From Bacillota bacterium (GTDB lineage Bacteria; Bacillota; Clostridia; Peptostreptococcales; Anaerovoracaceae), in NCBI GenBank assembly GCA_017459895.1, contig JAFUCA010000002.1, forward strand, positions 1 to 64,000: DNA of 64,000 nucleotides. Reading direction: 5' to 3'. This document shows positions 1 to 61,500 of the stretch, in pieces; positions within the stretch are counted from its first letter, which is position 1, and each line of letters opens with the position of its first letter. The notes beneath the pieces are model-generated. The model was given only the letters and a program-made list of their open reading frames with translations. It searched no databases and was not told the origin of the DNA. The position numbers and the translations under genes were made by a program.

Positions 1-1313
1 ATCTCTGCCGGCGACCCGAGCCGTCCGGCATTGTCCGCCAGTATGATCTTCGACGCCATCATGAAGAGGGCTGCCGGAACCCCCTTGCCGGAGACATCCG
101 CAATCACAAGGCACAGATGATCCTCATCGATCAGGAAGTAATCGTAGAAATCACCGCCCACCTCTTTTGCCGGATCCATAGAAGCCGCCAGCCGGAATCC
201 AGCCTGCTTCCCGAAATCCGGCTGCTCCGCGGGCAGCATCGCCGCCTGGATCCGGGCGCCCATTGCCAGTTCCGCGTTGATCCGTTCTTTCTCCGATGTG
301 ATGGACCGGATCTCCTCAAGATGCTCATCGATCTCCAGCGACAAGTCGTTCATATCCTCTGACAGGCGGCCGATCTCGTTGCTGGAATCGACTTCTGACA
401 GTTCCTCCCGGAACCGGCGGCTGTCCCTGGAACTCATGTATCCGCGGATGCTCGCCTGCACTCTGCGCAAAGGCTGCAGAGCCACCTGATTCAGAAGGGC
501 CAGGCACATCCATGCCAAAAGGATCTGGGTGAGAACGGCGACAGCGGTCCCCTGGATCGCCCTGCGATTGATATCGTCCCGGATGTCGGTAAGATCAAAA
601 GTCATACCGATGAACAGATCTCCCTGCTTCGCCTCTCCGATCCAGGAATAGTAATCCACATAGTCTCCGGCAGATACGAGATGTGAATGATTCTCCCGAG
701 CCCGGTCCATCCCTTCCTTCTGGCTGTCGGACACATCTGCCTTTACCCCCAGAGTATAGACTTCCTCGTACCGGGTCCCCCGTTTGGCGCCGGGATCCGC
801 CGCGCTGAGCAGGAAGAACTGCCTGTGGTGATCTTTCCCGGAAGAAACGATGAACAGGAAGGCCGCCTTTTGCGTATGCTTGATCTGATTCAGCCGCGTG
901 ATGATCCAGGAGTAGGTCACCTCCGCGTACAGCTTCTGATCCTCTTCCGACATGGCCTGCAGATCTGATTCATCCGCATACTTCAGCTGCAGATCCGGAT
1001 ACGCCCGGGTCAGGATCGCGGCCTTTCGCTCCGTTTCATTTTCGCTGCTGTAATCGGCATCATATTCGATATCCATCTCATCCGCATGTGCCTGCCAGTA
1101 ATCCAGCAGCCACTCATAGGCCGGATATTCCTTCAGGGCAAGCTCCGCCTCCTCTGAGGTCTGAGACGCATCGCTCTCCACCTGCCTTCTGACCATACCG
1201 TCCGAAACTACCTGCTGGGCAAAGTAGGTCAGAGCTCCCACCGCCAGCGCTCCCGCCGCGAACAGGATCGCCACCTGCAGCAGGAGCCCTCTTTTTCTCA
1301 CTGTTTTCTTCAT
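1..1313 (-). CDS. membrane sensor with SpoIIE/PP2C-type phosphatase domain (3' end outside window)
   Basis: The reading frame opens with ATG at 1311-1313 and stays open to the left edge, so about 437 residues are visible and the C-terminus is cut off. A first membrane segment lies near residues 9-28. An extracytoplasmic sensor region of about 220 residues follows, then a second membrane segment near residue 255 and a HAMP-like linker. The RsbU/SpoIIE phosphatase motifs VGGDFYDYF and ADVSGKGVPAALFM are near the visible end; in this family such residues bind metal and dephosphorylate an anti-sigma antagonist. I infer a stress or general signalling role. The partner is not in the window. The gene contains one GCAAAGGCTG motif (467-476). 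Confidence 0.85.
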   Translation of the reverse strand, partial: MKKTVRKRGLLLQVAILFAAGALAVGALTYFAQQVVSDGMVRRQVESDASQTSEEAELALKEYPAYEWLLDYWQAHADEMDIEYDADYSSENETERKAAILTRAYPDLQLKYADESDLQAMSEEDQKLYAEVTYSWIITRLNQIKHTQKAAFLFIVSSGKDHHRQFFLLSAADPGAKRGTRYEEVYTLGVKADVSDSQKEGMDRARENHSHLVSAGDYVDYYSWIGEAKQGDLFIGMTFDLTDIRDDINRRAIQGTAVAVLTQILLAWMCLALLNQVALQPLRRVQASIRGYMSSRDSRRFREELSEVDSSNEIGRLSEDMNDLSLEIDEHLEEIRSITSEKERINAELAMGARIQAAMLPAEQPDFGKQAGFRLAASMDPAKEVGGDFYDYFLIDEDHLCLVIADVSGKGVPAALFMMASKIILADNAGRLGSPAE

Positions 1314-1542
1314 CTCGTCCTTTCTGGCCGCACTGACATCGAATGTGTCAACATTCGATCCGATCCTGCATTCTCCCGCACTTGGAAATTATTATATCAT
1401 AGTTTTCTTTATATATAAGTATATGATTTACCAATACCTGGTGGTGTCATGAATCAAACAACAATATATCGCGGCAGTCAGTGTCCCGGCTGCCCTGCCG
1501 ATGGTATATAATGAGTATGCAATACAAGACAGGAGACAGGAT

Positions 1543-1905
1543 ATGCTATTGATCAAAAGACACTGGCCAGTGATACTGATGGCGATCGTATGGATCTGTT
1601 CCATCATTGACTGGAGATGGATCGGGACCACAGACGGAGACGCTCTTGGATTCAGCATTTTATTCTTCGGAATACTAATGCCGCTATGCTCATTTGTATT
1701 ATCGATCTGGTATGGATATCGGGTCCGGGTCCTTCGTAAATGGCTGATCGTATTTGCCTGCGGGATTGCCGGCGTCCTGATCGTGGCGATCAGCACCGGG
1801 GATTTTTCCTTTTGGCATAACAAGGAGCTTGGCCTGATGTCGCTCGTTCCTTCCGCAATCGGAATGATCATTGGATCTGGTGTCTGGAAACTCCTTCACA
1901 GATAG
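1543..1905 (+). CDS. small hypothetical membrane protein
   Basis: The product is 120 residues from ATG 1543, chosen because AGGAGA sits six bases upstream; an in-frame ATG at 1501 lacks such a site. Hydrophobic segments near residues 8-24, 36-58, 65-82 and 92-115 suggest four membrane passes, ending in a short basic tail. I do not recognise the family. It lies between the divergent phosphatase gene and the ECF sigma gene, with about 165 bases before the sigma start, so co-transcription is possible but not shown. Confidence 0.6.
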   Translation: MLLIKRHWPVILMAIVWICSIIDWRWIGTTDGDALGFSILFFGILMPLCSFVLSIWYGYRVRVLRKWLIVFACGIAGVLIVAISTGDFSFWHNKELGLMSLVPSAIGMIIGSGVWKLLHR

Positions 1906-2069
1906 ATTTCTATTTGCATGCCGAAGCAGAAGCAAAGACTGGTATTGGAGGCGGACCTGGTCATGCAGGCGTTTACAAATCTCGTGATCGATCCGGAATA
2001 ATCAAAAAAATCCGTCAGTTTGCAACAAATCGCTTCTTCACGGATTATATAAGTGAAGAGAGGAACAGT

Positions 2070-2561: not shown

Positions 2562-3297
2562 TATCATAGAAGACCTGATGCAGCAATACGTAGATGGTGT
2601 TTTGAGCGACGACAGCCGGCAGTTGGTAGAGGAACATCTTGACGGCTGCGAGGAATGCCGGCAGAAGGAGCAGCAGATCCGATCAATCTGCCGGGAACTG
2701 GATGAAGGTGCAAAGGCTGGCGCGGTGCCGGAGGCCAGACAGGATTACGGAAGCCTCCGAAGATTTCGCCGATGGATAACGCTGCGGAGGGCGCTGACCA
2801 TCACGCTGTCTGTTCTGGTCACGTTCTGTGTCGTAGTCGGGGGGGTGTTCCTGATGTTCGATCTGGAGAGTTATATGCCATATCAGAAGACGGGTATGCA
2901 TGTCAATGAAAATGGAATGATGTTTATGGATGAACCCTATTATGGATACCGGGGCGCATACAGCGGCATCGATCTGAATGGGGATATGATCGAGATCTTC
3001 TATATGACGGACACCTTCCAGAAACGGCACTTAGGGAAACCAACCAGAGGTCATGTCGTTGACTTCGGCGTGGAGGATCAGGGAACCCGGACGAATGAGG
3101 AGGGCGTCCGGGAAAAGATTCCGCCAATAGACAAAGTGTATTATCTCAAAGAAGAATATGTGAAAGAAAAGCATCTGATGGATCCCTTTGACTCCCACGC
3201 TTCCCTGATTCCACTGGATGCCGGCAAAGAAGAGGAACTGCGCATCATCAATGAAATTGAAAACGACTCGATTCTGGTGTGGGAAAGATCCAAATGA
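2545..3297 (+). CDS. anti-sigma factor with N-terminal zinc finger and one membrane segment
   Basis: The product is 250 residues. The N-terminal 45 residues carry the zinc-finger anti-sigma pattern HLDGCEECRQ (H-x3-C-x2-C). A single membrane segment lies near residues 86-108 and an extracytoplasmic domain of about 140 residues follows. Such proteins hold the partner ECF sigma at the membrane until a signal releases it. The gene starts 17 bases inside the sigma gene. The extracytoplasmic part is not a domain I recognise. The gene contains a GCAAAGGCTG motif at 2710. Confidence 0.85.
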   Translation: MKITCNIIEDLMQQYVDGVLSDDSRQLVEEHLDGCEECRQKEQQIRSICRELDEGAKAGAVPEARQDYGSLRRFRRWITLRRALTITLSVLVTFCVVVGGVFLMFDLESYMPYQKTGMHVNENGMMFMDEPYYGYRGAYSGIDLNGDMIEIFYMTDTFQKRHLGKPTRGHVVDFGVEDQGTRTNEEGVREKIPPIDKVYYLKEEYVKEKHLMDPFDSHASLIPLDAGKEEELRIINEIENDSILVWERSK

Positions 3298-4945: not shown

Positions 4946-6019
4946 TCAACCAGTTGTTCTTGTGATCAGCAAAGCCAGGATCACGGCGCTGATTCCGCCT
5001 GCCAGCTTCGCAGCCACCAGCGCCGCTGTCATTTCCGGCGCATAGCTTGCGATAAATCCCAGGTGATCGCCGAAAACAAAGGATCCGGAAACACAGAATG
5101 CCGCTGTCAGGATCCTGCCGCGATGATTCATCTCCGGCATCATGGAGAATATCGGGATGCAGTTTGCCAGAATCACGAGAAGCCCGCCGACCGCCGTTTC
5201 ATTCACACCGATCCGTCTGCCGATGCTCTGCAAAGGCTGGTGCAAAACCCTGGTTATGATCTCCACCAGAACATAGGCGCCGGCCAGAATCAATGCCACA
5301 TTTCCGATGATCACGATCGCTTCTTCCACCGGCATTGTATTCTCAAAGAATGTGAACGGTGTAAATTCCTTCATTACTCCAACACATACACCGGCAATAC
5401 TGATTCCCAGAATGACTTTCCCTAATATCATGAAAACGCGAACAATCGCTTTTTCCCACTTCCACAAGCAGATAATGATAATCAAAGAGAGTGCTGCGAC
5501 AGGCAGAATGTTCATCAGCATACAGGAAAAACGAAGCCCTGACGCGATTCCGCCGACTATGATTCCGATCGGAATCGTAATCATTCCAATGAGCACTCCC
5601 TTTATTACCTCTTTCTGATGCCCATTTCCAGTAAGCGCCATCCCAACGGGAATGTTGAACGAAATGGTATCCCCCAGCATGGAGGCGGTCATCAATGCAA
5701 GGATATATCCATCCGTCCCTGCCATGAGCTGCTTCGCCAGCGGAGCGCCGCCGATATCAAGCCCCAGTATCATACCGCCAAACATCGCGGGATCCGCGCC
5801 GATTGCAGTAAAAGCAGGCACAATAACAGGTCTGACGATATCCCCGATCAGCGGTGCCAGAACCAGCAGCCCCCCTGTGGAAATCATCAGTGTACCCATT
5901 GCCATAATGCCGTCTTCAAATTTGTTCCCCAGTTTCAGCCTGCTGCCGGTCATGCGGTCCGCGGCTCCGACGAGAACAAAAGCTATCATGAGATAGATGA
6001 TAATATGATTGATATCCAT
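4946..6019 (-). CDS. eutH: EutH-family ethanolamine (possibly choline) transporter
   Basis: The product is 357 residues with about ten hydrophobic segments and the EutH signature regions GLDIGGAPLAKQLMAG and FVFGDHLGFIASYAPEMTA. EutH facilitates ethanolamine entry. I chose ATG 6019; no strong ribosome site is visible, and a TTG at 6040 with AGGGG just upstream is an alternative. The gene stands alone, about 35 kb from the choline BMC locus and with no ethanolamine lyase in the window, so whether it feeds that locus is unknown. It contains GCAAAGGCTG at 5230. Confidence 0.9.
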   Translation of the reverse strand: MDINHIIIYLMIAFVLVGAADRMTGSRLKLGNKFEDGIMAMGTLMISTGGLLVLAPLIGDIVRPVIVPAFTAIGADPAMFGGMILGLDIGGAPLAKQLMAGTDGYILALMTASMLGDTISFNIPVGMALTGNGHQKEVIKGVLIGMITIPIGIIVGGIASGLRFSCMLMNILPVAALSLIIIICLWKWEKAIVRVFMILGKVILGISIAGVCVGVMKEFTPFTFFENTMPVEEAIVIIGNVALILAGAYVLVEIITRVLHQPLQSIGRRIGVNETAVGGLLVILANCIPIFSMMPEMNHRGRILTAAFCVSGSFVFGDHLGFIASYAPEMTAALVAAKLAGGISAVILALLITRTTG

Positions 6020-6208
6020 ATTCAGATCATAACAGCTCAAGTCCCCTGTGTGTCAATACAGAATATCATGATCTGTTCCACAAATCACGAAGTGGGCTGT
6101 GCGAAAGCGGCCTCACAAATTCATCTATGCGCCGACTTCTCTTTTGTATTATAATTTTACTGACGGTGAACCAGCCTTTGCGCCGGATACAGTGAGTGGA
6201 GGAACCTT

Positions 6209-9445: not shown

Positions 9446-9865
9446 ATGATCCGATACGAAGGAAGTCACCCCTGGGAACAGTATTTCACCAGATTTTTTG
9501 ACAAAGGCTGGACGCAATCCGGCTCCCCGTATTACTTTCAAATAATCCATGACAAGAAAGGAAATCCATCCAATCTGCAGTGTTTCTATAAGGAGCAAGG
9601 CGGAGGAATAACGTATGCAGGAACATACAAAATCCTCAGGACGGAAGAGATCAATGGCGATAACTATGTTGTTCTTCGAAGAATGGATGATGAACCCTTT
9701 GACGATATCAAACCCTGTTCCGATGATAAGCGTTTAGATAACGTTGGAGATATCATCACCGCAAGATACTATCCGACAGGGTGGTATCGCCTTGAACTCA
9801 TGCCGCCAGTACCGTCGATCTCAGAACGGCTGCTGAAAGAGTTTGACGAATCTTCTATATCCTGA
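9446..9865 (+). CDS. hypothetical protein, 139 residues
   Basis: ATG 9446 is preceded by AGGAG at nine bases. The product is hydrophilic, with no membrane segment and no motif I recognise. Aromatic and charged residues are spread evenly (FFDKGWTQSG, then YYPTGWYRLELM), which suggests a small globular cytosolic domain. It lies 48 bases before the agmatinase gene and between the sigma-gene remnant and that gene. A functional link to agmatinase is possible from spacing only. Confidence 0.6.
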   Translation: MIRYEGSHPWEQYFTRFFDKGWTQSGSPYYFQIIHDKKGNPSNLQCFYKEQGGGITYAGTYKILRTEEINGDNYVVLRRMDDEPFDDIKPCSDDKRLDNVGDIITARYYPTGWYRLELMPPVPSISERLLKEFDESSIS

Positions 9866-10960: not shown

Positions 10961-11641
10961 TCAGAGAGATGCGCCTGCCCAGCCGATGATCATCAGGGCG
11001 ACGGAGAGCAGCCCTGCCAGCATAATCGTTTTATTCAGGACCGCGACCCTTCGGAAGGAGCCTCTCCCGGGGAGGGGTTTCGCCCCCACAATGCGCCGGG
11101 CGTGTCCGGCGTATTTCACCATGGCGCGGAGGGACATGATGACAGCCAACAGTATCAAAACCGTCAGCCCTGTATACCGGAGTATGCCCATGTCGTGTAT
11201 GGTATGAAGCACGCCGTCCTCGGACGAGAACAGACGAAATCCATGAAAGAGGTTGTCCCAGGCCAGGTATCCGCAGCTCAGTACCGCCAGACCGGCGGCG
11301 ATGGCGTACCCTCTGGCCCTCCTCGCGAAGCTCTGCCGGTCCGTGAAAAGCTCCGCCGCATGGTTATCTTCACAATAGAACACGTCCATTCCTCTGCTGG
11401 ACCCGGCGTGCTTCCAGCCGCTCTCCTCATAAAAAGCAACCTCCTCCGCCTTTGCCCTGCCGATGGCATTCGGCACGATCCGATACCGCAGCTTCCGGGG
11501 TTCGCATTCTTCGAAGGTCGCGAAACAGGAGAACATCCCTGTCAGCAGCCAGCCTTTGCCTGCCAGATCCTCCAGCCAGCTTTCCATGTATTCGTATTCA
11601 TAGACCCCGAACGGAATGTATTTCGTTTTTGTCTTTCCCAC
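10961..11641 (-). CDS. DUF2812 membrane protein (PadR-partner)
   Basis: The product is 226 residues if translation starts at GTG 11641, preferred because AGGAGG lies seven bases upstream; the longer frame from ATG 11665 would place that ribosome site inside the gene. The N-terminal DUF2812 domain (YEYMESWLEDLAGKGWLL) is followed by three hydrophobic segments near residues 118-138, 155-175 and 200-222. It follows a PadR gene by 26 bases, a common pairing in Firmicutes in which PadR controls the membrane protein. It contains a GCAAAGGCTG copy. Confidence 0.8.
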   Translation of the reverse strand: MGKTKTKYIPFGVYEYEYMESWLEDLAGKGWLLTGMFSCFATFEECEPRKLRYRIVPNAIGRAKAEEVAFYEESGWKHAGSSRGMDVFYCEDNHAAELFTDRQSFARRARGYAIAAGLAVLSCGYLAWDNLFHGFRLFSSEDGVLHTIHDMGILRYTGLTVLILLAVIMSLRAMVKYAGHARRIVGAKPLPGRGSFRRVAVLNKTIMLAGLLSVALMIIGWAGASL

Positions 11642-11667: not shown

Positions 11668-12045
11668 TTATGCAAAGGCTGGTTTTCCTGCTGCTCCAGC
11701 CTTTGCACGGACCTCCTCATCTGCCTCCTGCGCCGGCTGATAATCTCTCTGCGTATCCGCAAGGCATATGCGCAGCCGATCGACCTCTTCCTGAAAGAGC
11801 TGGTTCCCCTTCTCTGTGATCTCATACGGGATCCGGCGCCCGTCCTGTTCCATTCTCCGGATAACACCCTCCTTCTGGAAGGTGGATAAAATGGCATACA
11901 GCGTCCCCGGTCCCAGCCGGACGCGGTCGGAGGTGAGCCCCTGGACATACTCCGCGATCTCGGTTCCGCTCATACTCCTCCTGGACAGGCACAGGAGCAC
12001 ATAATACATCGGCTCTGTCAAAGGATCCAAGGCTTTTTTCGGCAT
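11668..12045 (-). CDS. PadR-family transcriptional repressor
   Basis: The product is 125 residues with the PadR winged helix (SRRSMSGTEIAEYV, then LGPGTLYAILSTFQKEG). It ends with a short Ala-rich tail encoded by a 37-bp perfect inverted repeat made from two GCAAAGGCTG copies. Its promoter overlaps two palindromes (12065-12125), which suggests autoregulation. It is the first gene of a pair with the DUF2812 protein. Confidence 0.9.
   Translation of the reverse strand: MPKKALDPLTEPMYYVLLCLSRRSMSGTEIAEYVQGLTSDRVRLGPGTLYAILSTFQKEGVIRRMEQDGRRIPYEITEKGNQLFQEEVDRLRICLADTQRDYQPAQEADEEVRAKAGAAGKPAFA
11671..11707. repeat. inverted pair of the GCAAAGGCTG motif
   Basis: TGCAAAGGCTGG (11671-11682) and CCAGCCTTTGCA (11696-11707) are perfect 12-bp inverted arms around a 13-base loop. 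The element spans the stop codon and last residues of the PadR gene, so it could form an RNA hairpin there. Confidence 0.85.
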
Positions 12046-15032: not shown

Positions 15033-15566
15033 TTACAGCGCCGTCCCCTTCTTCGGAACAAACAGCCTTTGCATATCCGTTCCCTCCAGCTGAAGGAGAC
15101 GGATCTTCTTATCGATCCCTGCGGCGTATCCGGTGAGGCTGCCGTTAGAACCCACCACCCGGTGACAGGGAATGATGATGGAGATCTCGTTGTGCCCCAC
15201 AGCGCCGCCCACCGCCTGGGAGGACATCCGCAAGAGGCCCCGCTGCTGCGCGATGCGCCCGGCGATCTGGCCGTAGGTCATCGTCTCACCATAGGGGATC
15301 TGCAGCAGGATCTCCCACACTTCCTTCTGAAAATCCGTTCCGACCATGTGGATCGGCGGCAGGAAGTCCGGCTCTTCTCCGGCGAAATAGATATCCAGCC
15401 ACTCCCTCGCCTTCGCAAAGGCCGGGCATTCCCGCTCCTCATGCTCCGGATCCAGATAGTATCCGAAATACTTCTGCCCTTCGATCCACAGCCCCGTCAG
15501 GCCCTGATCATCGGCCGCCAGCGTCAGCCTGCCCACCGGCGAATCGTAATACGTTAAGTATTGCAT
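15033..15566 (-). CDS. ogt: methylated-DNA-protein cysteine methyltransferase
   Basis: The product is 177 residues from ATG 15566; upstream in-frame sequence is the shadow of the preceding gene. The active-site motif is IIPCHRVVGSNGSLTGYAAG, with the helix-turn-helix before it (QIPYGETMTYGQIAGRIAQ). It removes alkyl groups from O6-alkylguanine by a suicide reaction. The start lies 13 bases inside the upstream FAD gene, so it ends the SCIFF operon. It contains a GCAAAGGCTG copy near its 3' end. Confidence 0.93.
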   Translation of the reverse strand: MQYLTYYDSPVGRLTLAADDQGLTGLWIEGQKYFGYYLDPEHEERECPAFAKAREWLDIYFAGEEPDFLPPIHMVGTDFQKEVWEILLQIPYGETMTYGQIAGRIAQQRGLLRMSSQAVGGAVGHNEISIIIPCHRVVGSNGSLTGYAAGIDKKIRLLQLEGTDMQRLFVPKKGTAL

Positions 15567-17038
15567 CTGATTCCCTCCATTCCCGCTTCTGCAATGATAT
15601 TCACGCGGGTGCTCCCCACATCCCGCACCAGCACCTGGCCCGGTGCGATTCCCTGGGCCGGAAGCGCGATCGTCATCTCCCGCAGGGCCTCTGCGATCTC
15701 CTTCATTTCCCTTAGGGCCACCGGCGCGTCGCTTCGAACCGGTATCAGCCGGTCCCCTCCGGCTTCCTCCGCCTGCCGGATCCGCATAGTCGTCGTCAGG
15801 ATCCGCTGCGGGTCCGTCCTCTCCTGCCGCGCAAAGGCTGCTCCTCTGGGGCACCCGTTGCCTGTGATGCTCCACTCCCCTTGCTCCGCATCATCCGTCT
15901 TCGTGATCCGGATCTGACATCCCTTCGGACACAGGGTGCAGGTCACGCTGCCCTCCTCCGGCATTCCCCTGCGGGCTGCATTGTGAAGTTCCTTTTCCCA
16001 TTTTCGCAAAGGCTGGCCCGCGGCGAAGGCGGCGGCATTCCTTCCGGCCGCTTCGCCCTGCTCCGAAACAAAGTCGGCCAGATCCATGACTTCCCGCGCA
16101 TTTCCGCAGGCGAAAATTCCGGGGATGCTGGTCTGCAGGTAAAAGTCCGTTGCCGCACCGCCTCTTCGGTTCAGAGCGACCCCCGCGGTCTTCGCTACTT
16201 CATTTTCGGGGATCAGCCCCACCGACAGGATCAGCGTGTCGCATTCGATGCGACGTCCGGTGCCGGGAATCGGCTGCAGGTGTTCATCTACCTGAGACAG
16301 CTCCACCGCTACCAGCCGGTCCCTGCCATAGATATTGGAAACACCGGTGCGAAGGTACAGAGGGATGTCGTAATCGAACAGGCATTGCCGCACATTTCTG
16401 GCAAGACCGGTGGGCTGCTCCATGACTTCCGCCGCGCAAAGGACCTGCGCGCCCTCCAGGCTCAGGCGCCTTGCCATGATCAGCCCGATGTCACCGGATC
16501 CCAGGATCACGACCCTCCGGCCGACCATGATGTTCTTTCGGTTGATCAGGTTCTGGGCGACGCCGGCGGTGAAGATCCCTGCCGGCCGGGTCCCCGGAAT
16601 CGAGAGCATCCCCCTCGTCCGCTCCCGGCATCCGGTGGCGAGAACGACGGCCTTCGCATAAAACACCTGCCGGCCGCCTGGGCTGATGGCCGTTACGGCG
16701 AAACGAGCGATCTCTTCTGTGATCCGCCGGATCTCCGTCACCATGTGGCCTGTCAAAACCCTTACGCCCGATGCTTCTGCCTTCTCCTGCTCGATCCGGG
16801 CATACTCCGGTCCGGACAGCTGGGCTCCGTAGCGCACGATCCCAAACCCGTCGTGGACGCACTGGTTCAGGATCCCGCCGGGGATCTCCTCCCGTTCCAG
16901 AACCAGCACGCCGGGCGTCTGTCCCCCGCGCCGCAGTTCCTTCGCCGCCGCGGCCGCCGCCGAAAGTCCGCCGGGTCCTGCGCCGATGACGAGGACGTCG
17001 CAGTAATTCCGTTGTTCCGTCCGGCTGCGCATATTCAC
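15554..17038 (-). CDS. FAD/NAD-dependent oxidoreductase with C-terminal DUF1667 domain
   Basis: The product is 494 residues. The FAD motif is VIGAGPGGLSAAAAAAKE, and a second Rossmann motif is VILGSGDIGLIMARRL. The C-terminal 120 residues form a DUF1667 domain (CTLCPKGCQIRI), usually encoded as a separate gene beside anaerobic glycerol-3-phosphate dehydrogenase-like proteins; here it is fused. It overlaps the GlpA-like gene by 4 bases. I infer a two-subunit dehydrogenase passing electrons through the flavins. The true substrate is not fixed by sequence. Confidence 0.8.
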   Translation of the reverse strand: MNMRSRTEQRNYCDVLVIGAGPGGLSAAAAAAKELRRGGQTPGVLVLEREEIPGGILNQCVHDGFGIVRYGAQLSGPEYARIEQEKAEASGVRVLTGHMVTEIRRITEEIARFAVTAISPGGRQVFYAKAVVLATGCRERTRGMLSIPGTRPAGIFTAGVAQNLINRKNIMVGRRVVILGSGDIGLIMARRLSLEGAQVLCAAEVMEQPTGLARNVRQCLFDYDIPLYLRTGVSNIYGRDRLVAVELSQVDEHLQPIPGTGRRIECDTLILSVGLIPENEVAKTAGVALNRRGGAATDFYLQTSIPGIFACGNAREVMDLADFVSEQGEAAGRNAAAFAAGQPLRKWEKELHNAARRGMPEEGSVTCTLCPKGCQIRITKTDDAEQGEWSITGNGCPRGAAFARQERTDPQRILTTTMRIRQAEEAGGDRLIPVRSDAPVALREMKEIAEALREMTIALPAQGIAPGQVLVRDVGSTRVNIIAEAGMEGIRCNT

Positions 17039-18567
17039 TTCACCCTTCCTGCAAACATCTCACTGCCGCTATTCCGGTAGCGGATCTCCTCCGGCTTCAC
17101 ACCGTATTCCCGCACCAGCATCTCCGTGATCCTGGGCAGGCAGTAGCCGCCATTGCACCTTCCGGTGGTCGCCCAGGCCCGGTACTTGATCGCAGCGATG
17201 CTCCGTGCTCCCAGCGGATTTTCGATGGCCTGCCGGATCTCCCGCTTCGTGATCTTCTGGCATCGGCAGATGATCTCCCCATACTCCGGATCCTCTCGAA
17301 TCAACTCCGCCTGCCGCTGCGGGCTCTGCTCCCGAAAGCGCAGGATGCCCCGGCGGCTTTCTTCAAAGTCGTTCTTCCGACGCAGGCCGCGGGATGACCG
17401 GCCGGCTGCTCCGGCACGCTCCATCTGTTCGATCATTCGGCACACCTGCCGCGCGATGGGTACCGACGCCGTCAGTCCCGGGGATTCAATCCCTACCAGA
17501 TCGATCAGTCCCAGTACATCCTCCTCCGCGCGGATCACAAAGTCCTGATAGCCCCCTTCCTCCGGCGGCGCCAGCTTCGGGCGGATTCCGCTGTAGTTTC
17601 CGATGGGCTGCATATCTCTGACCGCCGGCACAAGCTGTACCGCCTGCCGCATGAGTTCTTCCATGACCGGCCTGGTGCAGGCGTAGTCATCGCGGATATC
17701 CAGGTATTCCGCCGACGGGCCGATGATGATGTTGCCGTCGCTGGTGGGCGTCAGATGCACCCCCAGCCCGCCCGCTTTCTTTCGCGGCGCCGGGTACACC
17801 GGCATTGCCAGCTCGCTTTTATCGAGAATAAAATACTCCCCGCGGCAGGGATAGATGTGGTAGCGGTCCGCTCCGGCCATGGCCGCGATCCGGTCCGCCT
17901 GCAGTCCGGCTGCATTGATCAGATACCGGCAGCCGAAGTTCCTGCCGCCGGCTTCGATCCGAAACCGCTGCCCCTCAGGCTCGTGCTCCCGTGCTCCAGC
18001 CCGCCGGATCCCGGTCACCTCGGTGTCCAGATAAAACTGTGCTCCGTTCGCCCGGGCATTCTCCGCCAGGGCTGCGCAGTAGAGGAAGGGATTCGTGATC
18101 CCGGTATGGGGCGACCAGAGTGCCTTGGCCGGGCCGCTTCTTCCGGCCGCTGCACCGCCGATGGATCCCATGCCCCGCTCCTCCAGCAGCTGCTCCAGGC
18201 GCCTGCCCTCCAGAATCTCCAGGTCCCGGCATCCATTCATCCGGCCCTGTGCCAGCAAATGCTCCAGAGTCTGCACGTCCTCATCATCAAAGGCCAGCAG
18301 CAGCTTTCCCGTCTCACGAAACGGAACGTCCAGCTTTTGCGCAAGGTCGGCAAACCCCTCATTTCCCTCCACGCAAAGGCTGGCCATCCGGCTTCCCGGA
18401 CGATTGTTGAATCCGGCATGCACCACTGCGGAATTCCTCCCGGTGGTCTCCCCGGCTACGTCGCTGTTCTTTTCCAGCACTGCGATCGAGAGCCGGTACC
18501 GGGAGAGCTCCCGCGCGCAGGCGCATCCCACCGCGCCCGCGCCTATGATGATCACATCATATTCCAT
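17035..18567 (-). CDS. GlpA-like FAD oxidoreductase with BFD-type [2Fe-2S] domain
   Basis: The product is 510 residues. The N-terminal FAD site is VIIIGAGAVGCACARELSRY, followed by the DAO fold (GIRPKLAPPEEGGYQDF). Near residue 435 a BFD-like iron-sulfur domain has ICRCQKITKREI and GRCNGGYCLP cysteines. This arrangement matches anaerobic glycerol-3-phosphate or 2-hydroxyglutarate dehydrogenase-like subunits. The gene starts 11 bases inside the SCIFF maturase gene. Confidence 0.8.
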   Translation of the reverse strand: MEYDVIIIGAGAVGCACARELSRYRLSIAVLEKNSDVAGETTGRNSAVVHAGFNNRPGSRMASLCVEGNEGFADLAQKLDVPFRETGKLLLAFDDEDVQTLEHLLAQGRMNGCRDLEILEGRRLEQLLEERGMGSIGGAAAGRSGPAKALWSPHTGITNPFLYCAALAENARANGAQFYLDTEVTGIRRAGAREHEPEGQRFRIEAGGRNFGCRYLINAAGLQADRIAAMAGADRYHIYPCRGEYFILDKSELAMPVYPAPRKKAGGLGVHLTPTSDGNIIIGPSAEYLDIRDDYACTRPVMEELMRQAVQLVPAVRDMQPIGNYSGIRPKLAPPEEGGYQDFVIRAEEDVLGLIDLVGIESPGLTASVPIARQVCRMIEQMERAGAAGRSSRGLRRKNDFEESRRGILRFREQSPQRQAELIREDPEYGEIICRCQKITKREIRQAIENPLGARSIAAIKYRAWATTGRCNGGYCLPRITEMLVREYGVKPEEIRYRNSGSEMFAGRVK

Positions 18568-19963
18568 TTCCTTCCGTCTCCGCCACTTTCATCATGATCG
18601 CGCACTCCATCCGCTTTCGGAACAGCCGGCAGCCGTACTCGTAAACTCCGGAAATGGATCCGGTCCCGTGATAGGCGTTGGCCGCGCAGCCGCCGGAGCA
18701 GTAGAGCTTCGCCCAGCAGTCCGCACACTCCTCATGTGCGTAGATGTTGTTGCGGCCGAACGCCTCCTGCAGCGCCGCCGCATCGATTCCGTTCCAGATG
18801 TTGCCCATCCGGAATTTCTCTTCTCCCACGAACTGATGGCACGGGTAGAGATCGCCCCAGGGCGTCACGGCATAATATTCCGTTCCCGCGCCGCACCCGG
18901 CGATCCGCTTGTAGATACAGGGGCCCCCTTCCAGGTCCAGCATATAGTGATAGAAGGTGACCGGCCGTCCCTCCTCCTGCCGCTGCAGCATCCAGCGGGC
19001 CAGTTCCTCGTACTGCTCGTAGAGCAAAGGCAGGTCTGCCTCGGTCAAGGCCAGCGGATCGGAAGGATCCGTGACCACCGGCTCCATGGAGAGCTGATCG
19101 AAGCCCAGTTCGGCCATGTGTTTGATGTCCTCGGTAAAGTCCGGATTGCAGTGGGTGAAGGTGCCCCGCATATAGTATTCGCCGCCGTCTCTCGCCTGCA
19201 CCAGCTTTTGGAATTTCGGCACGATGATGTCGTAGCTGCCCTGACCGCCCATCGTCCGGCGGAAGCGGTCGTGAACTTCCCTGCGTCCGTCCAGGCTCAG
19301 CACGACATTGTGCATTTCCCGGTTGGTGAATTCGATGATCTCGTCGGTGAGACCCACCCCGTTGGTGGTCAGTGTGAACCGGATGTTCTTATTGTGCTCC
19401 CGCTCAAGCTGCCGTCCGTAGCGGACCGTCTCCTTCACCACATCCCAGTTCATCAGCGGCTCCCCGCCGAAGAAATCCACGTCCAGATTGTAATGGCTGC
19501 CGGACTCCCGCACCAGGAAATCCAGCGCCGCCCGGGCCGTTTCCGCTGTCATCACGGCGCGCTCGCCGTGAAAGTTTCCCTGGCTGGCGAAGCAGTAACT
19601 GCAGCTGAGATTGCAGGTATGTGCCACGTGCAGGCAGAGGGCTTTCACAAAAGGTGCGCGGGGCTTCAGAAGCTCCGGGTGAGGCGCAAACAGGTCCTCC
19701 GAAAACAGCTGCCCCAGCCTTTGCAGCTCGTCGATGTCCTCAAACACCTCGGCGACGGAGGAAGCCGTTTCCTGAGGATACCGCTCCAGAATCTGCGCCG
19801 TGATCTTCGCCCGGTCCTCCTCTGTAACCTCACGGCCCTCGCCTTCGATGACCGCACAAAAAAGACGGATGATGTCATAAGAGGCATCATCCACGCAATG
19901 TACAGAGCCGCTGTTCACGTCGAGTACGATGTTGTACCCATTCAGTCGGTACGGATGGATCAT
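18557..19963 (-). CDS. scfB: radical SAM SCIFF-peptide maturase (thioether-forming)
   Basis: The product is 468 residues. The radical SAM cluster motif is CNLSCSYC (C-x3-C-x2-C) with GGEP after it, and a C-terminal SPASM region has multiple cysteines (IAGCGAGTEYYAVTPWGDLYPC, split here as GCGAG and LYPCHQF; then CADCWAKLYCSGGCAAN). The N-terminal 90 residues resemble a peptide-binding wing. The enzyme would install sulfur-to-carbon thioether links in the SCIFF peptide encoded directly upstream, whose stop overlaps this start (TAATG). Confidence 0.93.
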   Translation of the reverse strand: MIHPYRLNGYNIVLDVNSGSVHCVDDASYDIIRLFCAVIEGEGREVTEEDRAKITAQILERYPQETASSVAEVFEDIDELQRLGQLFSEDLFAPHPELLKPRAPFVKALCLHVAHTCNLSCSYCFASQGNFHGERAVMTAETARAALDFLVRESGSHYNLDVDFFGGEPLMNWDVVKETVRYGRQLEREHNKNIRFTLTTNGVGLTDEIIEFTNREMHNVVLSLDGRREVHDRFRRTMGGQGSYDIIVPKFQKLVQARDGGEYYMRGTFTHCNPDFTEDIKHMAELGFDQLSMEPVVTDPSDPLALTEADLPLLYEQYEELARWMLQRQEEGRPVTFYHYMLDLEGGPCIYKRIAGCGAGTEYYAVTPWGDLYPCHQFVGEEKFRMGNIWNGIDAAALQEAFGRNNIYAHEECADCWAKLYCSGGCAANAYHGTGSISGVYEYGCRLFRKRMECAIMMKVAETEGNGI

Positions 19964-38286: not shown

Positions 38287-38554
38287 TTGTCACGCAACGC
38301 TTATTTTTTGGATCTGACGTGACAATTCTTCGTTTCGTTTGTCACGCGATGCTTCAAATCAGGGTATGCCGTGACAATTTGCGATGCAAAGGCTGAGGCG
38401 GCCGCATGAAATTGTCACGCGAGACCTCTTTTATGCTCTTACCTTGACAAAAGCTCCTTCGGTTTGTCACGCAGTGCGCGGTTTTCGCCAGTTCCATGAC
38501 AAACGCATTCTGAAATTGTCACGCAACACTTCAAATCAGGGCGTACCGTGACAA
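38287..38554. repeat. five 39-bp interrupted palindromes with a 52-bp period
   Basis: Units at 38287-38325, 38339-38377, 38412-38450, 38464-38502 and 38516-38554 are each exactly 39 bp. Each starts TTGTCACGC and ends with CGTGACAA or a one- to two-base variant, so each can fold into a hairpin with 8-bp arms. Interiors differ, but units 2 and 5 share CTTCAAATCAGGG. Spacers are 13 bases, except 34 between units 2 and 3, where 21 extra bases carry GCAAAGGCTG. The array fills most of the 377-base gap 38237-38613. Spacers are too short and interiors too variable for CRISPR. Confidence 0.9.
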
Positions 38555-40555: not shown

Positions 40556-43126
40556 CTATTTCCAGCCGTGCAGTTTCGCCAGGGTGGTCTCCACATCCGC
40601 ACCGGTCTGATAGCATTCCATGACCTTGGCGCTGTCGGAGGTATCCCCGATGATCACTGCTCCGACGAATACATCGTGGAGGAAATAGAACTTCTTATAG
40701 GTCAGCATTCTCGGATCGTCGACCTCAATGGTCTTGTAGATCTCGCCTTCCTTCTTGCCGTTGTCGCCGAGAGCGAAGAGCTCGATACCGAATCCGGTAA
40801 AGCTGACGGCCGGTGTAATGCCCTCATAAACGAGGCTGTCGCCGACGGCATTGGCGCCGGCTACGCGGCCCATCTCCACCGCCTGGTTCCAGATACCGAT
40901 GGACACGCCGTTGCAAGCGGCCACATCACCGGCAGCGTATACATCCGGCAGGGTCGTTTCCATCTTCTCATTGACATTGATGAACCGCTCCGCGGATGCT
41001 CCCGCCGTCTGCAGCACCTGCACGTTGGCCTTGGTTCCGGTGGACAGGATCACCAGCTGCGCCGGGATCTTCTCTGTCTCCAGAGCAACTCCGTCCGCCT
41101 GGATGCCGCTGATCTTCGCCCCCGTGATCACCCGGACGCCCTTGGCCTCCGCGGCGGCTTTCAGGAACCGGGATCCGGTCTCGTCCAGCTGCCGTCCCAT
41201 CAGGCTCGGCGCCATTTCCACCACGGTCACATTGCGTCCGGTCTTGATAAACTCGGAAGCCGCTTCCAGTCCCAGTACGCCTCCGCCGATCATGACGATG
41301 TCCTTGACCTGCGGGAGGGCATTCTGGATCGCGATGATATCCGTGACCTTGCGGATCACGCGGACCATCGGCTGATCCGCACCCGGGATCGGCGGCACGA
41401 AGCTCTCCGCGCCGGTGGCATAGACCAGCTTGTCGTAGCTTCTGGTCTCGCCGTTTGCGAGGGTCAGCGTCTTCGTTCCTCCGTCGATGCGGGTTACCGC
41501 AGCGCCGAAGGTGACCTTGATGTTGTTGTTCACATACCAGTCCGGATTCTTGGTGATGAAACCGAGGATGTCCGGTTTGGCCAGAATGTTCTTTGTCAGC
41601 ATCGGCCGGTTGTAGCAGGGCAGATCCTCATCGGTGATGATCTCGATGGAAGCCGCGTGGTTTCTCTCCCGGGCTGCTTCCGCTGCCGTCAGAGCCGCCA
41701 CTCCGCCGCCGACGATGACGACGTTCACAGGATCGGTGGATGTGAATCCCGTATTCGCTACATTTACTGCAACGAACTGTTCCGGGCCAACCCCGCAGAT
41801 GGGACAGCTTTGCGGCGGGACATCGCCGTAGACCACTTCTCCGCAGACCAGGCACTTCCATGCCTGCGCACCGCCTGCCGCCGGCGCCGCCGGAGCGGAC
41901 CCGCCAGCCTTTGTATTGTCATAGTGCGCCTTCGCCTTGAGACCGAAGCCGTAGCCGAAGTCAAAGGCCTGCTGCAGCTCCACCGGAGATGGCTTGAACT
42001 GAACGCGGAAGCCGTCTTTGTAGACATCCATGTTCAGCTGATGCAGCCGTTCGATCAGATGGGGCACCGCCTCGCCCGACCAGCCGTAAGCTCCGAAAGC
42101 GGATGCCGGCTTACCGCCGTGCAGTCCCGCGAACAGGGACGTGGTCAGATCGTAGATCGGCTTCAGCGCCTCGCCCAGGACCGTCGGTGATCCGAAGAGC
42201 AGGCCGTCCGCCCAGTACATTTCACCGACCACCTCGCCGGCATCAGCATAGACCATATCATAGGCCTTGACCTCGATGTCGCTGCAGGCTTTGTGAATGC
42301 CCGCGGTGATCTGATCCGCCAGCGTCTTGGTATATCCGTAGGCCGCCACATAGGGCATGATGACCACCGGATGGTCGTTCGGGTTGACTTCCGTGGACCA
42401 GTCGCGGTAGACCTCGATCCAGTGAGGAATGTCATTATCGAGTACCGGACCGTGACCCGGGCAGATCATGGAGATGGATTTGTCCTTGATCTTCTCCAGC
42501 GCCTCCAGTACATACGGCTTGAACGGTCCGATGATGTTGTCGTAGTAGTATTTCATCATCCGCATGGAGCTGTCCAGATCCGTTACGGTGGACTGGAGGA
42601 TCCCCGGATGACTGTAGTGGTTTCCGAAGGAATCGCAGGGTACCAGAATGCCGTCCTCCCGGATGTAGGTCCACATGGTGTCGGGCCAGTGGAGATTCGG
42701 TACGATCATGAATTCCAGCGTTTTGTCTCCCAAAGGCAGGACATCCCCGTCACTGATCGGAATGGAGTTGAACTCCCGGTTGCTGACCGCCTTCATGAAG
42801 CCGAGGGCCGTCGGTGTGCCGACCAGCTTGATCCCCGGGTTCAGGTCGATAATCCGCTCCGCCGTTCCGGCGTGATCCGGTTCGGTGTGGTTCACGATCA
42901 GGTAATCGATGTCCTGGATATTGACCAGCGTCTGCAGCTGGGCGATGTATTCATCCGCCCATTTCTCTTTGGCCGTTTCAAAAAGCGCCGTCTTCTCGCT
43001 TCCCTTCAGCAGGTACGAGTTGTAGGTCGTACCGAAGTCGGTGTGCATGATGATATCAAACACTTCCAGATCCGGATCCAGAATGCCGGTCCAATAAAAG
43101 TTTTTTCTGAGTTCCATTGTACTCAT
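40556..43126 (-). CDS. class F flavodiiron protein (FDP-rubredoxin-NAD(P)H:rubredoxin oxidoreductase fusion)
   Basis: The product is 856 residues in four parts. The beta-lactamase-like diiron domain has ligands H80, E82, D84, H85, H146, D165 and H225. A flavodoxin domain spans about 252-395. A rubredoxin has C425, C428, C441 and C444. A pyridine-nucleotide-disulfide oxidoreductase runs from about 468 (VVIVGGGVAALTAAEA). This single-chain chain of cofactors can carry electrons from NAD(P)H to reduce oxygen or peroxide to water. As the last gene of the choline arm it probably protects the glycyl radical enzyme or recycles NAD. Confidence 0.92.
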   Translation of the reverse strand: MSTMELRKNFYWTGILDPDLEVFDIIMHTDFGTTYNSYLLKGSEKTALFETAKEKWADEYIAQLQTLVNIQDIDYLIVNHTEPDHAGTAERIIDLNPGIKLVGTPTALGFMKAVSNREFNSIPISDGDVLPLGDKTLEFMIVPNLHWPDTMWTYIREDGILVPCDSFGNHYSHPGILQSTVTDLDSSMRMMKYYYDNIIGPFKPYVLEALEKIKDKSISMICPGHGPVLDNDIPHWIEVYRDWSTEVNPNDHPVVIMPYVAAYGYTKTLADQITAGIHKACSDIEVKAYDMVYADAGEVVGEMYWADGLLFGSPTVLGEALKPIYDLTTSLFAGLHGGKPASAFGAYGWSGEAVPHLIERLHQLNMDVYKDGFRVQFKPSPVELQQAFDFGYGFGLKAKAHYDNTKAGGSAPAAPAAGGAQAWKCLVCGEVVYGDVPPQSCPICGVGPEQFVAVNVANTGFTSTDPVNVVIVGGGVAALTAAEAARERNHAASIEIITDEDLPCYNRPMLTKNILAKPDILGFITKNPDWYVNNNIKVTFGAAVTRIDGGTKTLTLANGETRSYDKLVYATGAESFVPPIPGADQPMVRVIRKVTDIIAIQNALPQVKDIVMIGGGVLGLEAASEFIKTGRNVTVVEMAPSLMGRQLDETGSRFLKAAAEAKGVRVITGAKISGIQADGVALETEKIPAQLVILSTGTKANVQVLQTAGASAERFINVNEKMETTLPDVYAAGDVAACNGVSIGIWNQAVEMGRVAGANAVGDSLVYEGITPAVSFTGFGIELFALGDNGKKEGEIYKTIEVDDPRMLTYKKFYFLHDVFVGAVIIGDTSDSAKVMECYQTGADVETTLAKLHGWK

Positions 43127-46606: not shown

Positions 46607-47029
46607 TTACTTCTTAAAGTATTTGCTGAACTCTTCGATGAGGACCTTCTTGTTGGCATTTCTGATCTCTCTGCCGGCAATGCCGAACTCGCCGTTGTAT
46701 TCACGAGCCAGCGCTCTCAGGTCAACGACCTTGACCTTGCCGAGTGCTTTGACCGCTGCATCTGCGCCATGTTTCCTGACCATGGCGTCCAGCGCCTTGC
46801 GATCCGCCGGAGCTTCCAGATCATCGGCTTTCGCCGGTGCCTTCTCTGCCTTCGCGGGAGCCTTCGGAGCCGCCTTTGGTTTTTCCTCCTTCGCAGGGAC
46901 CTTTTCAGCCTTTGCGGGAGCCGCCGGTTTCTCCTCAGCCTTTGCCGGAGCTTCTGTTACAGCAGGAGCTGCCGGTGCGCTTGCAGGAACTGCCTTAGCA
47001 GGTTCTTCAGATGCCTTCTCCGGTCTCAC
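46607..47029 (-). CDS. Ala/Pro/Lys-rich protein with Rho_N-like C-terminal domain
   Basis: The product is 140 residues from GTG 47029; no ATG is available. The first 70 residues are PAKAE-type low-complexity repeats. The last 50 (KVVDLRALAREYNGEFGIAG, then NKKVLIEEFSKYF) look like a Rho_N/SAP-like nucleic-acid-binding fold. The frame extends upstream through a Pro/Glu-rich stretch to 47074 without a start, ending against the preceding BMC-H stop. It could be a detached or frameshift-linked tail of that shell protein, similar in idea to EutK. Two GCAAAGGCTG copies lie in it. Confidence 0.6.
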   Translation of the reverse strand: MRPEKASEEPAKAVPASAPAAPAVTEAPAKAEEKPAAPAKAEKVPAKEEKPKAAPKAPAKAEKAPAKADDLEAPADRKALDAMVRKHGADAAVKALGKVKVVDLRALAREYNGEFGIAGREIRNANKKVLIEEFSKYFKK

Positions 47030-53002: not shown

Positions 53003-53028
53003 TCGCTAAACCTTTCTGTGTCTTACCG

Positions 53029-53976: not shown

Positions 53977-54017
53977 GATGCGCTTACCTCCAGCCTTTGC
54001 GTTAACTTACTTATTTC

Positions 54018-58158: not shown

Positions 58159-58190
58159 TTGTAATCACTCCCTCCGCCTGCGACAGCCTT

Positions 58191-58505
58191 TTAATATGGT
58201 AACAGTTTATCTAATGTGTATCTCTCGATGATCTTCTCGAGTGCCGGATGCGGTGTCGCGATAACGCAGGAGCTGTAGACTTCCGTTCCCATCTCCTCGA
58301 CCGCCTTGACGCCTGCCTCTACTGCAGACTTGCATGCGCCGACATCACCTCTGACCAGTACCGAAATGTAACCGGATGCGGTGTTCTCATATCCGACGAA
58401 CTCGACCTCAGCTGCCTTGACCATTGCGTCGGCAGCCTGGCAGATGAATACCAGCCCGAAGGTTTCGATCATTCCTAATGCTCTTCCGCTTCTTCCACTT
58501 GCCAT
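58191..58505 (-). CDS. BMC-H hexameric shell protein
   Basis: The product is 104 residues with a single BMC domain (ALGMIETFGLVFICQAADAM, then [19 protein letters not shown]). It is the second gene of the minus arm and carries a longer C-terminal helix than its neighbour. Confidence 0.95.
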   Translation of the reverse strand: MASGRSGRALGMIETFGLVFICQAADAMVKAAEVEFVGYENTASGYISVLVRGDVGACKSAVEAGVKAVEEMGTEVYSSCVIATPHPALEKIIERYTLDKLLPY

Positions 58506-58529
58506 TGGTTTACTTCCTTTCTAATCTAA

Positions 58530-58832
58530 TTAGTAAATATCAACGTCATGACAGGATACGATATCGCCGACTTCCCGGATGGGTCTGGGGATTACGTTCT
58601 GTGCCGTTAATGTGCCGATCGCCGCCGCTGCCTTCGCGCCTGCTTCTACCGATGCTCTGCAGGCCGCAACGTCACCGGTAACGATGATGGTAACCAGTGT
58701 GGAACCGATATTCTCGTAGGAAACCAGTTCGACCTCAGCTGCCTTCAGCATCTTGTCGCATGCATCCAGTGCCGGCACCATGCCGATCGTCTCGACGAAA
58801 CCGACCGCTTCTTGACCATAAAATCTAGGCAT
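58530..58832 (-). CDS. BMC-H hexameric shell protein (first gene of minus arm)
   Basis: The product is 100 residues with a canonical BMC domain (AVGFVETIGMVPALDACDKM, then IVTGDVAACRASVEAGAKA). Its start has GGAG upstream. It is the promoter-proximal gene and probably the most abundant shell component. Confidence 0.95.
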   Translation of the reverse strand: MPRFYGQEAVGFVETIGMVPALDACDKMLKAAEVELVSYENIGSTLVTIIVTGDVAACRASVEAGAKAAAAIGTLTAQNVIPRPIREVGDIVSCHDVDIY

Positions 58833-58942: not shown

Positions 58943-59101
58943 TAAGAGATTTTTCGGGAGCATCCGTCTCATCGCCTATTCCCAATTAATAATTCTGACA
59001 ATTCGCGGTTTTTGAACGTTCGTGCTCCCCTGCCCGTGCTCCGGCCAGCCTTTGGATAACCAAATATATACAGGGCATGATTTCCAATCATTGTCCAAAC
59101 C

Positions 59102-60102: not shown

Positions 60103-60111
60103 GAGGCCGCG

Positions 60112-60603
60112 ATGCGAAAGCTCTTTCTCTGCGGCCGTTCGGAAGCCGGCAAAACATCACTGACCCAGGCGCTCAAGGGCGAAAACGTACACTACATCAA
60201 GACCCAGTACGTCAAGACCTGGGACATTACCATCGACACTCCCGGAGAATACGCCGAAACCAAGAGCCTGGCCATGGCCCTCGGTATTTTTTCCTTTGAC
60301 TCCGATGTAGTCGGCCTGCTGTGCGGCGCCGACGAACCATACAATCTGTTCGATCCGGCCATCGTCGGCGTGGTCAACCGGCCTCTGATCGGGATCATCA
60401 CCAAGATCGACGAGCCGAACGCCAACGTTCCGATGGTCCGGCAGTGGCTGGAGGAAGCCGGCTGCGAGGAGATCTTCCCCGTCGACAGCGTCACCGGCCG
60501 AGGCATTGAAGAACTGCGGAACTATCTGCTGCAGCCCAAACAGCCGCTGGATCTTGACCGGGTCATGCGCAATCAGGCAATGGGTCTGAGAGACTGGGCT
60601 TAG
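60112..60603 (+). CDS. second PduV/EutP-like GTPase
   Basis: The product is 163 residues with Walker A LCGRSEAGKTSLTQAL, switch-like TIDTPGEYAE and specificity-like IGIITKIDEPNA. It lies 9 bases after a PduU-like gene and 15 before the merR gene. It probably binds the preceding shell protein. Confidence 0.9.
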   Translation: MRKLFLCGRSEAGKTSLTQALKGENVHYIKTQYVKTWDITIDTPGEYAETKSLAMALGIFSFDSDVVGLLCGADEPYNLFDPAIVGVVNRPLIGIITKIDEPNANVPMVRQWLEEAGCEEIFPVDSVTGRGIEELRNYLLQPKQPLDLDRVMRNQAMGLRDWA

Positions 60604-60618
60604 AGCGGAGGGGCTCCC

Positions 60619-61500
60619 ATGGGCAACGCAGATCATCCTACATTATTTACCATAGGGCAGACCGCAGAGATCTGCGGCGTTTCTGCACGTACGCTCCGTT
60701 TCTATGAAGAGCACGGTCTGATCCGCCCGGATAAGGTGGACGAAGAAAATCGCTACCGGTACTACAGCTACAATACCATGCGGCAGATCCAGACGATCCG
60801 TTATCTGCTGGACGAGGGGTTCGCCCTCTCCACGATCCAGGACGTGCTCCAGAAGGATGATCTGAACGCGCTGAAGGAGCATTTCCAGAATCAGATCACA
60901 GAGACCGAAGCCCAGATCCGCTATCAGAAGCAAAGGCTGGCCAGCCTGCGTGCCTGGCGGGCGCTCCTTGTCGAAGGAGGCTATGTCCTGGAGCACCGCG
61001 ACTGTTCCATCGGCACCCGCTTCCTGGAAAAGCAGTCCTTCTTTTATTTTCAGCATGTCCCTCAGACCGAGGAAGAACGGACGGAAGCTTTTATTGAGAC
61101 GCAGTACTTCACGGAATCCAAGCTCCGGGGACACACGATGGTGGACATGGGCGGAGCATTCACATTCCTGTATGATTCCACGAAGGATCGTCTGAGCGGC
61201 AATGCGGAGAAGATCACCCTGCTGCAGACCGTCTATCCCGACAGCGAAAGTACCGACAAGACCATCTCTTTCGGCGGCTTCCTGGCCGTAAACTGCTATC
61301 ACATCGGAACTCTGAACAACATCTGTGACACCTACGACCGGATGCTTCACTGGGCGCGGGAGCACCAGTTCCCGCTGCAGGGACAGTGTCTGGAACGACA
61401 TGTACTGGATACCTACTCGGTCCAGTCCGAGGACAGCTTCGTCACCGAGATCCTGCTGCCGGTGGCCGGCGATACCGCCGAATTCGAAAAAATCATTTGA
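60619..61500 (+). CDS. MerR-family regulator with GyrI/BmrR-like effector domain
   Basis: The product is 293 residues. The winged helix is FTIGQTAEICGVSARTLRFY, followed by a dimer coiled coil to about 115 and an AraC/GyrI-like effector domain. BmrR relatives bind cationic lipophilic molecules, so a quaternary amine such as choline is an attractive ligand (inference). Four CCCTAAGGG-type boxes in the locus, two of them inside long-spacer promoters, are likely sites. It contains GCAAAGGCTG at 60930. Confidence 0.88.
   Translation: MGNADHPTLFTIGQTAEICGVSARTLRFYEEHGLIRPDKVDEENRYRYYSYNTMRQIQTIRYLLDEGFALSTIQDVLQKDDLNALKEHFQNQITETEAQIRYQKQRLASLRAWRALLVEGGYVLEHRDCSIGTRFLEKQSFFYFQHVPQTEEERTEAFIETQYFTESKLRGHTMVDMGGAFTFLYDSTKDRLSGNAEKITLLQTVYPDSESTDKTISFGGFLAVNCYHIGTLNNICDTYDRMLHWAREHQFPLQGQCLERHVLDTYSVQSEDSFVTEILLPVAGDTAEFEKII

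Follow-up and report, generated by a model that had tools for sequence, protein, structure and literature searches.

Sequence-tagged DNA uptake is reported to be known only from the Neisseriaceae and the Pasteurellaceae (PMC12616744). In the Neisseriaceae the DNA-uptake sequence (DUS) is GCCGTCTGAA, accompanied by dialects that follow phylogeny around an invariant core (PMC3630211). The uptake signal sequence (USS) of the Pasteurellaceae occurs as the types AAGTGCGGT and ACAAGCGGT, distributed by clade, and its extended form of 17 nt consists of a core and a weaker distal segment (PMC12616744, PMC7811141). The USS has no chromosomal orientation bias, and uptake by Haemophilus is described as orientation-independent (PMC1939737). 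Published uptake sequences in general are described as abundant, in excess between genes and without orientation bias (PMC1939737), with an extended consensus (PMC12616744) and with frequent inverted pairs that act as terminators (PMC1852404). Here we describe a 10-mer, GCAAAGGCTG, that is dispersed over a 64,000-nucleotide stretch of a Clostridia genome (positions 1 to 64,000 of contig JAFUCA010000002.1, assembly GCA_017459895.1; hereafter the window) and over the draft genome from which the stretch comes. There is good support, as a sequence phenomenon, for a genome-wide motif of the uptake-sequence type that forms dialects within Clostridia, and we consider it probable that the motif is a DNA-uptake or self-recognition sequence of naturally transformable gut Clostridia. 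In open-licence literature, the titles and abstract openings that we considered contained no earlier report of an uptake sequence in Firmicutes, Clostridia, Lachnospiraceae or Bacillota, and no title in the portion of matches to the literal GCAAAGGCTG that we considered concerned the motif.

A dispersed 10-mer that overrides codon choice

The source draft genome (G000; 2,495,951 bases in 55 contigs, 93% complete, 5% contamination) contains 864 copies of GCAAAGGCTG, 442 on the plus and 422 on the minus strand, corresponding to about one per 2.9 kb, and only 10 copies of the reversed word (4 plus, 6 minus). The figure of 864 is slightly inflated because two small redundant contigs, C12 (equal to window 36463-47671, part of C6) and C14 (equal to part of C34), duplicate other contigs at >99.9% identity. 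The strand balance of the total says little because the orientation of draft contigs is arbitrary; over the first 123 contiguous kb of the window's contig the strands carry 24 copies each. Provided that this stretch spans no origin or terminus, an orientation towards the terminus of the kind seen in segregation motifs (FtsK orienting polar sequences, KOPS, or architecture imparting sequences, AIMS) is absent.

We examined 485,569 bases of G000, window included, or 465,228 after C12 and C14 were dropped, with 404 genes predicted by a simple home-made caller. The 10-mer ranking and the frame, strand and synonymous-resampling statistics leave out the duplicate contigs; the inverted-pair counts, the consensus alignment and the spacing comparisons with E. 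coli and with relatives include one or both. GCAAAGGCTG is the top 10-mer in the 465,228 bases, with 159 copies against 1.47 expected from an order-3 or 3.16 from an order-4 Markov model. This count far above expectation, together with the dispersal of the copies and the ratio of 864 to 10 reversed words, is neither that of a word near its Markov frequency nor that of a single repeated coding domain. Genes hold 127 of the 159 copies, 65 in sense and 62 in antisense orientation and in all six frames, and the motif has no polarity relative to genes. The remaining 32 are noncoding, where only 11.1% of the bases are noncoding (1.8-fold enrichment, p=0.0007). Neither the 65 of 127 sense copies nor the 24:24 division over 123 kb shows a strand bias.

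Synonymous resampling of the 404 genes according to the genome's codon usage yielded a mean of 2.2 motifs and a maximum of 5 in 50 runs, compared to 127 in the real genes. CAG-CCT-TTG is the spelling of 34 of the 42 Gln-Pro-Leu tripeptides (expected 0.09), CAA-AGG-CTG that of 25 of 55 Gln-Arg-Leu (expected 0.16), and GCA-AAG-GCT that of 36 of 121 Ala-Lys-Ala (expected 1.27). The motif is a DNA-level feature that overrides codon choice within genes. Its occurrence in six frames and the resampling result rule out a protein-domain repeat, and they bear out the statement in the initial annotation that protein conservation cannot explain the copies.

For the window, the initial annotation had reported 21 exact copies (12 plus, 9 minus) between 467 and 60939, and every one of them lies where it was placed. 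The claimed excess over chance is confirmed, since 100 dinucleotide shuffles produced a mean of 0.16 and a maximum of 1 copy. The copies are indeed spread over several frames, both orientations and intergenic DNA, with 16 of the 21 in genes and 5 outside according to the home-made gene caller, although two of these five (46906 and 46936) fall within 46607-47029, a longer open reading frame which the caller had shortened. In predicted genes, sense copies are found at 2710..2719 (+), 11550..11559 (-), 15063..15072 (-), 19715..19724 (-), 40095..40104 (-) and 60930..60939 (+), and antisense copies at 467..476, 5230..5239, 15831..15840, 16006..16015, 18373..18382, 27046..27055, 33950..33959 and 37739..37748 (all +). 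Copies at 6172..6181 (-) and 53991..54000 (-) lie between genes, and those at 46906..46915 (-) and 46936..46945 (-) in that longer reading frame. The copies at 11672..11681 (+) and 11697..11706 (-) are the left and right arms of the sole convergent pair of exact copies that the sample holds at a distance below 60 bp, and the copy at 38386..38395 (+) sits between two arms of another intergenic repeat, GTGACAATT. Variants that differ in the first base only, given earlier as six, number seven, five with C and two with A: ACAAAGGCTG at 9501..9510 (+) and 41905..41914 (-), and CCAAAGGCTG at 26270..26279 (-), 35493..35502 (-), 36267..36276 (+), 40311..40320 (+) and 59046..59055 (-).

All 20 copies of the second repeat, GTGACAATT, are intergenic, often paired with their own inverse and clustered; a duplicate contig accounts for five of them. 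They are located at window 38319-38548, 12179 and 3404, and in the sampled loci L001 (13490), L007 (10660), L010 (7293-7371) and L014 (8835-9012). This repeat surrounds the motif copy at window 38386 and, twice in L014, the variant GCAAAAGCTGG. A search of the window against Rfam at gathering scores gave no matches, GTGACAATT included. The window also contains, at 44187-58832 on the minus strand, a glycyl-radical bacterial microcompartment (BMC) locus with a pyruvate-formate-lyase-like enzyme, a radical-SAM protein, two aldehyde dehydrogenases, a phosphate propanoyltransferase, EutQ-, EutP- and RnfC-like proteins and four BMC shell proteins.

Consensus shape, inverted pairs and same-strand spacing

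An alignment of 223 copies of the 9-mer (duplicate contigs included) gives the consensus TGCAAAGGCTGG-N5-C, with T at 63%, G at 75%, CAAAGGCTG and G at 72%, followed past five unconserved bases by a distal C at 56% and then a weaker C at 46%. Coding and intergenic copies have the distal C alike, in 56% of 178 and 58% of 45 cases, and so do 56% of 52 copies from relatives of the same dialect. The consensus is asymmetric, spans about 18 bp, and is neither GCCGTCTGAA nor AAGTGCGGT, the sequences that the two known families use.

A mobile element, a terminator hairpin or a composition artefact could produce a dispersed repeat, and the inverted pair at window 11672 to 11706 would suit such an origin, as would the five pairs within 30 bp (three convergent, two divergent) that appear in the G000 sample when the variant CAAAAGCTG is counted. 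Such pairs involve few copies, and we rejected a terminator role for the motif on that ground: the 188 exact 9-mers of the same sample include a single convergent pair less than 60 bp apart, and G008 has four convergent pairs 30-100 bp apart. Flanks of the kind left by mobile elements are not strongly conserved either: beyond the consensus the alignment has no strongly conserved position, the next best being a T (37%) that stands three bases ahead of the initial one. Composition is excluded by the Markov and synonymous-resampling controls. This explanation is refuted for nearly all copies, and we regard it as extremely improbable for the motif as a whole.

The copies in G000 are also spaced in a direction-dependent way. 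Pairs of 9-mers separated by 100-1500 bp share a strand 28 times and occupy opposite strands 80 times (465,228 bases). In a slightly redundant set, same-strand pairs number 29 against an expectation of about 64-67, while opposite pairs, at 81 against 68-72, are not reduced. Of 12 frequent 8-mers from the same DNA that served as controls, some of them overlapping, 11 lack this same-strand loss; the exception, AAGGCTGG, forms part of the motif and shows it. The avoidance was noticed post hoc, and the pairs are not fully independent. In relatives it was not reproduced over the same range, with same-strand to opposite pairs of 10/12 in the same dialect, 10/19 in G003, 65/44 in seven A-ending species and 64/65 in the T/C-ending group. 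Same-strand avoidance may therefore need a strongly saturated genome, or it may be peculiar to G000.

We tentatively entertain, at less than even odds, a directional reader for which each copy would serve one side over about 1-1.5 kb, the motif being an independently evolved third dialect family and the first in a Gram-positive phylum. At short range, copies in the same orientation would then be redundant and opposite ones would not, as might hold for an oriented entry signal in single-strand import. Such a variant would differ from Haemophilus, whose described uptake is orientation-indifferent.

Directional spacing likewise suits a Chi-like signal, which would be read by AddAB, would halt degradation at a DNA end and would load RecA in one direction. 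The Chi sequence of E. coli is GCTGGTGG. The density of the motif, about one per 2.9 kb with 864 copies in 2.5 Mb, is Chi-like, and AddB-like matches occur in all 30 genomes searched, motif-rich and motif-poor, none of them above the curated cut-off. However, the motif lacks gene polarity, whereas Chi of E. coli K-12 is divided 67:12 by strand in 350 kb. Neighbouring Chi sites in E. coli are on the same strand in 58 of 77 cases and show no avoidance (19 pairs against 18.0 expected), compared to 67 of 194 adjacent 9-mers in G000. Furthermore, the motif-poor sister clade retains its AddB-like matches, and samples of 20-44 kb from seven motif-poor species contain no comparably enriched motif. We know of no Chi sequence that overrides codon choice so strongly, and of no Chi dialects within one genus. 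A Chi-like role is in our estimation quite improbable.

Dialects around a shared core

We searched 119 relatives alongside G000 for the exact 10-mer and found high counts only in some genomes of the same genus (G011 556, G010 355, G001 332 and G045 332). Comparison of the CTG-ending word GCAAAGGCTG with the CAA-ending word GCAAAGGCAA separates CTG-rich genomes (864/15 in G000, 556/8 in G011) from CAA-rich ones (7/517 in G003, 50/254 in G008 and 17/217 in G017). On the common core, the sampled endings are GCAAAGGCAA(CG) in G003, TGCAAARGCA in G004, G008 and G038, T/C in G013 and G018, and C in G030.

Counts of the core of the genus, GCAAARGC, cover every one of the 49 same-genus genomes. We set our own thresholds, a density above 0.3 per kb and a count above 1.9 times that of the reversed word, and by these 34 genomes are motif-rich and 15 motif-poor. 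Density forms part of the thresholds because the reversed word is CpG-rich and for that reason alone is low in some genomes. Borderline cases are G012, G032 and G035 (2.0-2.1 times), G037 (dense, 1.6 times), and G024 and G041 (3.0 times yet below 0.2 per kb). In other genera of the family (273 genomes) the highest density of GCAAAGGC is about 0.20 per kb (G066), compared with 0.33-0.55 per kb in 13 of 14 motif-rich genomes of the genus and 0.19 in the remaining one, G002. G305, from another genus, contains 110 copies of GCAAAGGC and 7 of the reversed word, at less than 0.1 per kb.

In a midpoint-rooted tree of DprA and GroEL from 30 species (29 with DprA, 26 with GroEL), the ten motif-poor species cluster together with an ultrafast bootstrap of 87. 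The endings broadly track the clades of this tree, in which several deeper nodes are weak. The dialects are clade-specific endings around a shared core, and they are sharp only in some species.

These dialects bear on a further possibility, that the motif is the binding site of an intracellular, chromosome-wide protein whose specificity varies between species, for instance a nucleoid protein, a factor in segregation or repair, or a defence system that marks self. The genome-wide and strand-balanced distribution, the asymmetric consensus and the direction-dependent spacing are all compatible with such a protein. Against it, segregation and terminus motifs are, to our knowledge, polar or domain-limited. 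Dialects with a shared core fit published uptake-sequence behaviour (PMC3630211), and we judge the intracellular protein unlikely, if less so than Chi.

Beyond the core, secondary enriched words were observed in L040, L027, L028 and the loci next to them, among them TTCTGACAA in G030, AAACCCCAC in G013 and GGCTAGGGTA in G018. A scan with the PilT-like ATPase of G000, from which the best 80 of 268 named loci were kept, returned nearly exclusively metagenome-assembled Firmicutes labelled Lachnospiraceae, Oscillospiraceae or similar, many named for ruminant or rabbit gut, with one strain-named isolate, Bacterium D16-50, so Clostridia is a reasonable label. Two close loci of this set, L144 and L146, share the G000 dialect. 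Several of the other enriched words in these 80 loci were set aside as local repeats or weak; L147, L199, L222 and others have moderately enriched words that are possibly further motifs of a similar kind.

Competence genes and comparison with known systems

From abundance, dispersal, codon override, endings, consensus and competence genes, all of which are observed, we infer uptake, a reader and a drive. The motif would be recognised at the cell surface by a DNA-binding protein belonging to the competence apparatus; fragments bearing it would enter the cell more often and then recombine into the chromosome. The motif would thus accumulate wherever it arises, by a molecular drive that selection on proteins holds in check. 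The specificity of the reader would drift between species, and the genomic copies would follow it, giving rise to dialects.

Competence genes are widespread. ComEC was found in 40 of 49 same-genus genomes, DprA in 29 of 30 genomes searched, and a ComEA-type helix-hairpin-helix domain as well as pilus-type ATPases each above cut-off in 27 of 30. As evidence these genes are weak because the ComEC and DprA families also match E. coli controls, and genes for natural transformation do not discriminate because the motif-poor clade has them too. The competence gene content to which the initial annotation had pointed is thus present in most genomes but does not distinguish the motif-rich ones.

G000 offers two candidates for the uptake machinery. 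One is a Tad/Flp-like locus, assigned by eye on the basis of its gene order and a T2SSE match; the other is a type-IV-pilus-like operon (L088:5562-10391) with transglutaminase-like and PilC-like proteins, four small membrane proteins (one a DUF4860 match) and the PilT-like ATPase. Micrococcus luteus is transformed by way of a Flp/Tad pilus (PMC6370729), and therefore either locus could serve. All 14 carriers of the operon ATPase at an identity of at least 68% are motif-rich (Fisher p=0.002); in 20 of the 34 motif-rich genomes the copy is divergent at 50-58% (6) or absent (14, one with a 41% match). Operons closer to that of G000 are found in species without motif enrichment. We do not accept the operon as the reader, given that many motif-rich genomes lack it and near versions occur in unenriched species. 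The ATPase of G000 is 73-81% identical to those of species outside the genus sample and 68-70% to those of G003, G004, G008 and G018, which suggests transfer or divergent paralogues. By eye, the Tad-like locus has no gene exclusive to motif-rich species in a comparison of five motif-rich with four motif-poor species.

Several observations weigh against an uptake sequence. ComEC is about equally common in motif-poor (11 of 15) and motif-rich (29 of 34) genomes. The operon is dispensable, with no ATPase match in the motif-rich G030 and G021 (98% and 96% complete), and the comparisons of the Tad-like locus and the pilus-like operon revealed no sequence-specific reader protein to match ComP or the predicted ComN/PpdA. 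The two dialect words are nearly equal in G013 (86 CTG, 64 CAA) and G018 (70 and 67), and endings are diffuse in G013, G018, G027 and G030, where the commonest two-base ending accounts for 11-16% of core copies. Same-strand avoidance below 1.5 kb is unexpected for a classical uptake sequence, which is indifferent to orientation. Inverted terminator pairs, common for known uptake sequences, are rare here, though not absent; frequent pairs of this kind are a common and not a defining trait.

If the motif is an uptake sequence, it would represent a third case, with sequence-tagged bacterial sex having evolved again under the Gram-positive cell plan, and it would hint at natural transformation that had gone unsuspected among bacteria of the rumen and gut. 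The many related species with differing endings, together with a motif-poor sister clade, constitute a natural experiment for finding the reader, and the direction-dependent spacing, if upheld, would bear on the strand that enters the cell.

The initial annotation had likened the motif to the uptake sequences of Neisseria or Haemophilus and to Chi-like or chromosome-organising motifs. The likeness to uptake sequences held on the sequence features tested, apart from the rarity of inverted terminator pairs, while that to Chi-like and chromosome-organising motifs is disfavoured by the lack of polarity. With Chi the motif shares its density and possibly directionality; E. coli Chi is strand-polar and without same-strand avoidance, and the motif in G000 is the opposite on both counts. 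With the USS the motif shares a core with a weaker distal segment, clade types and the absence of a chromosomal orientation bias, but it is unrelated in sequence, has one distal C in place of an AT-rich tail and is less dense. With the DUS it shares its length (10-12 bp), a dispersal in hundreds to thousands of copies, dialects in line with phylogeny around an invariant core, and relatives without such a repeat (PMC3630211). It differs from the DUS in that it is unrelated in sequence, occurs in Clostridia and not in Betaproteobacteria, has no identified ComP-like receptor and forms few inverted pairs, and in the diffuse endings of some species and the same-strand spacing of G000.

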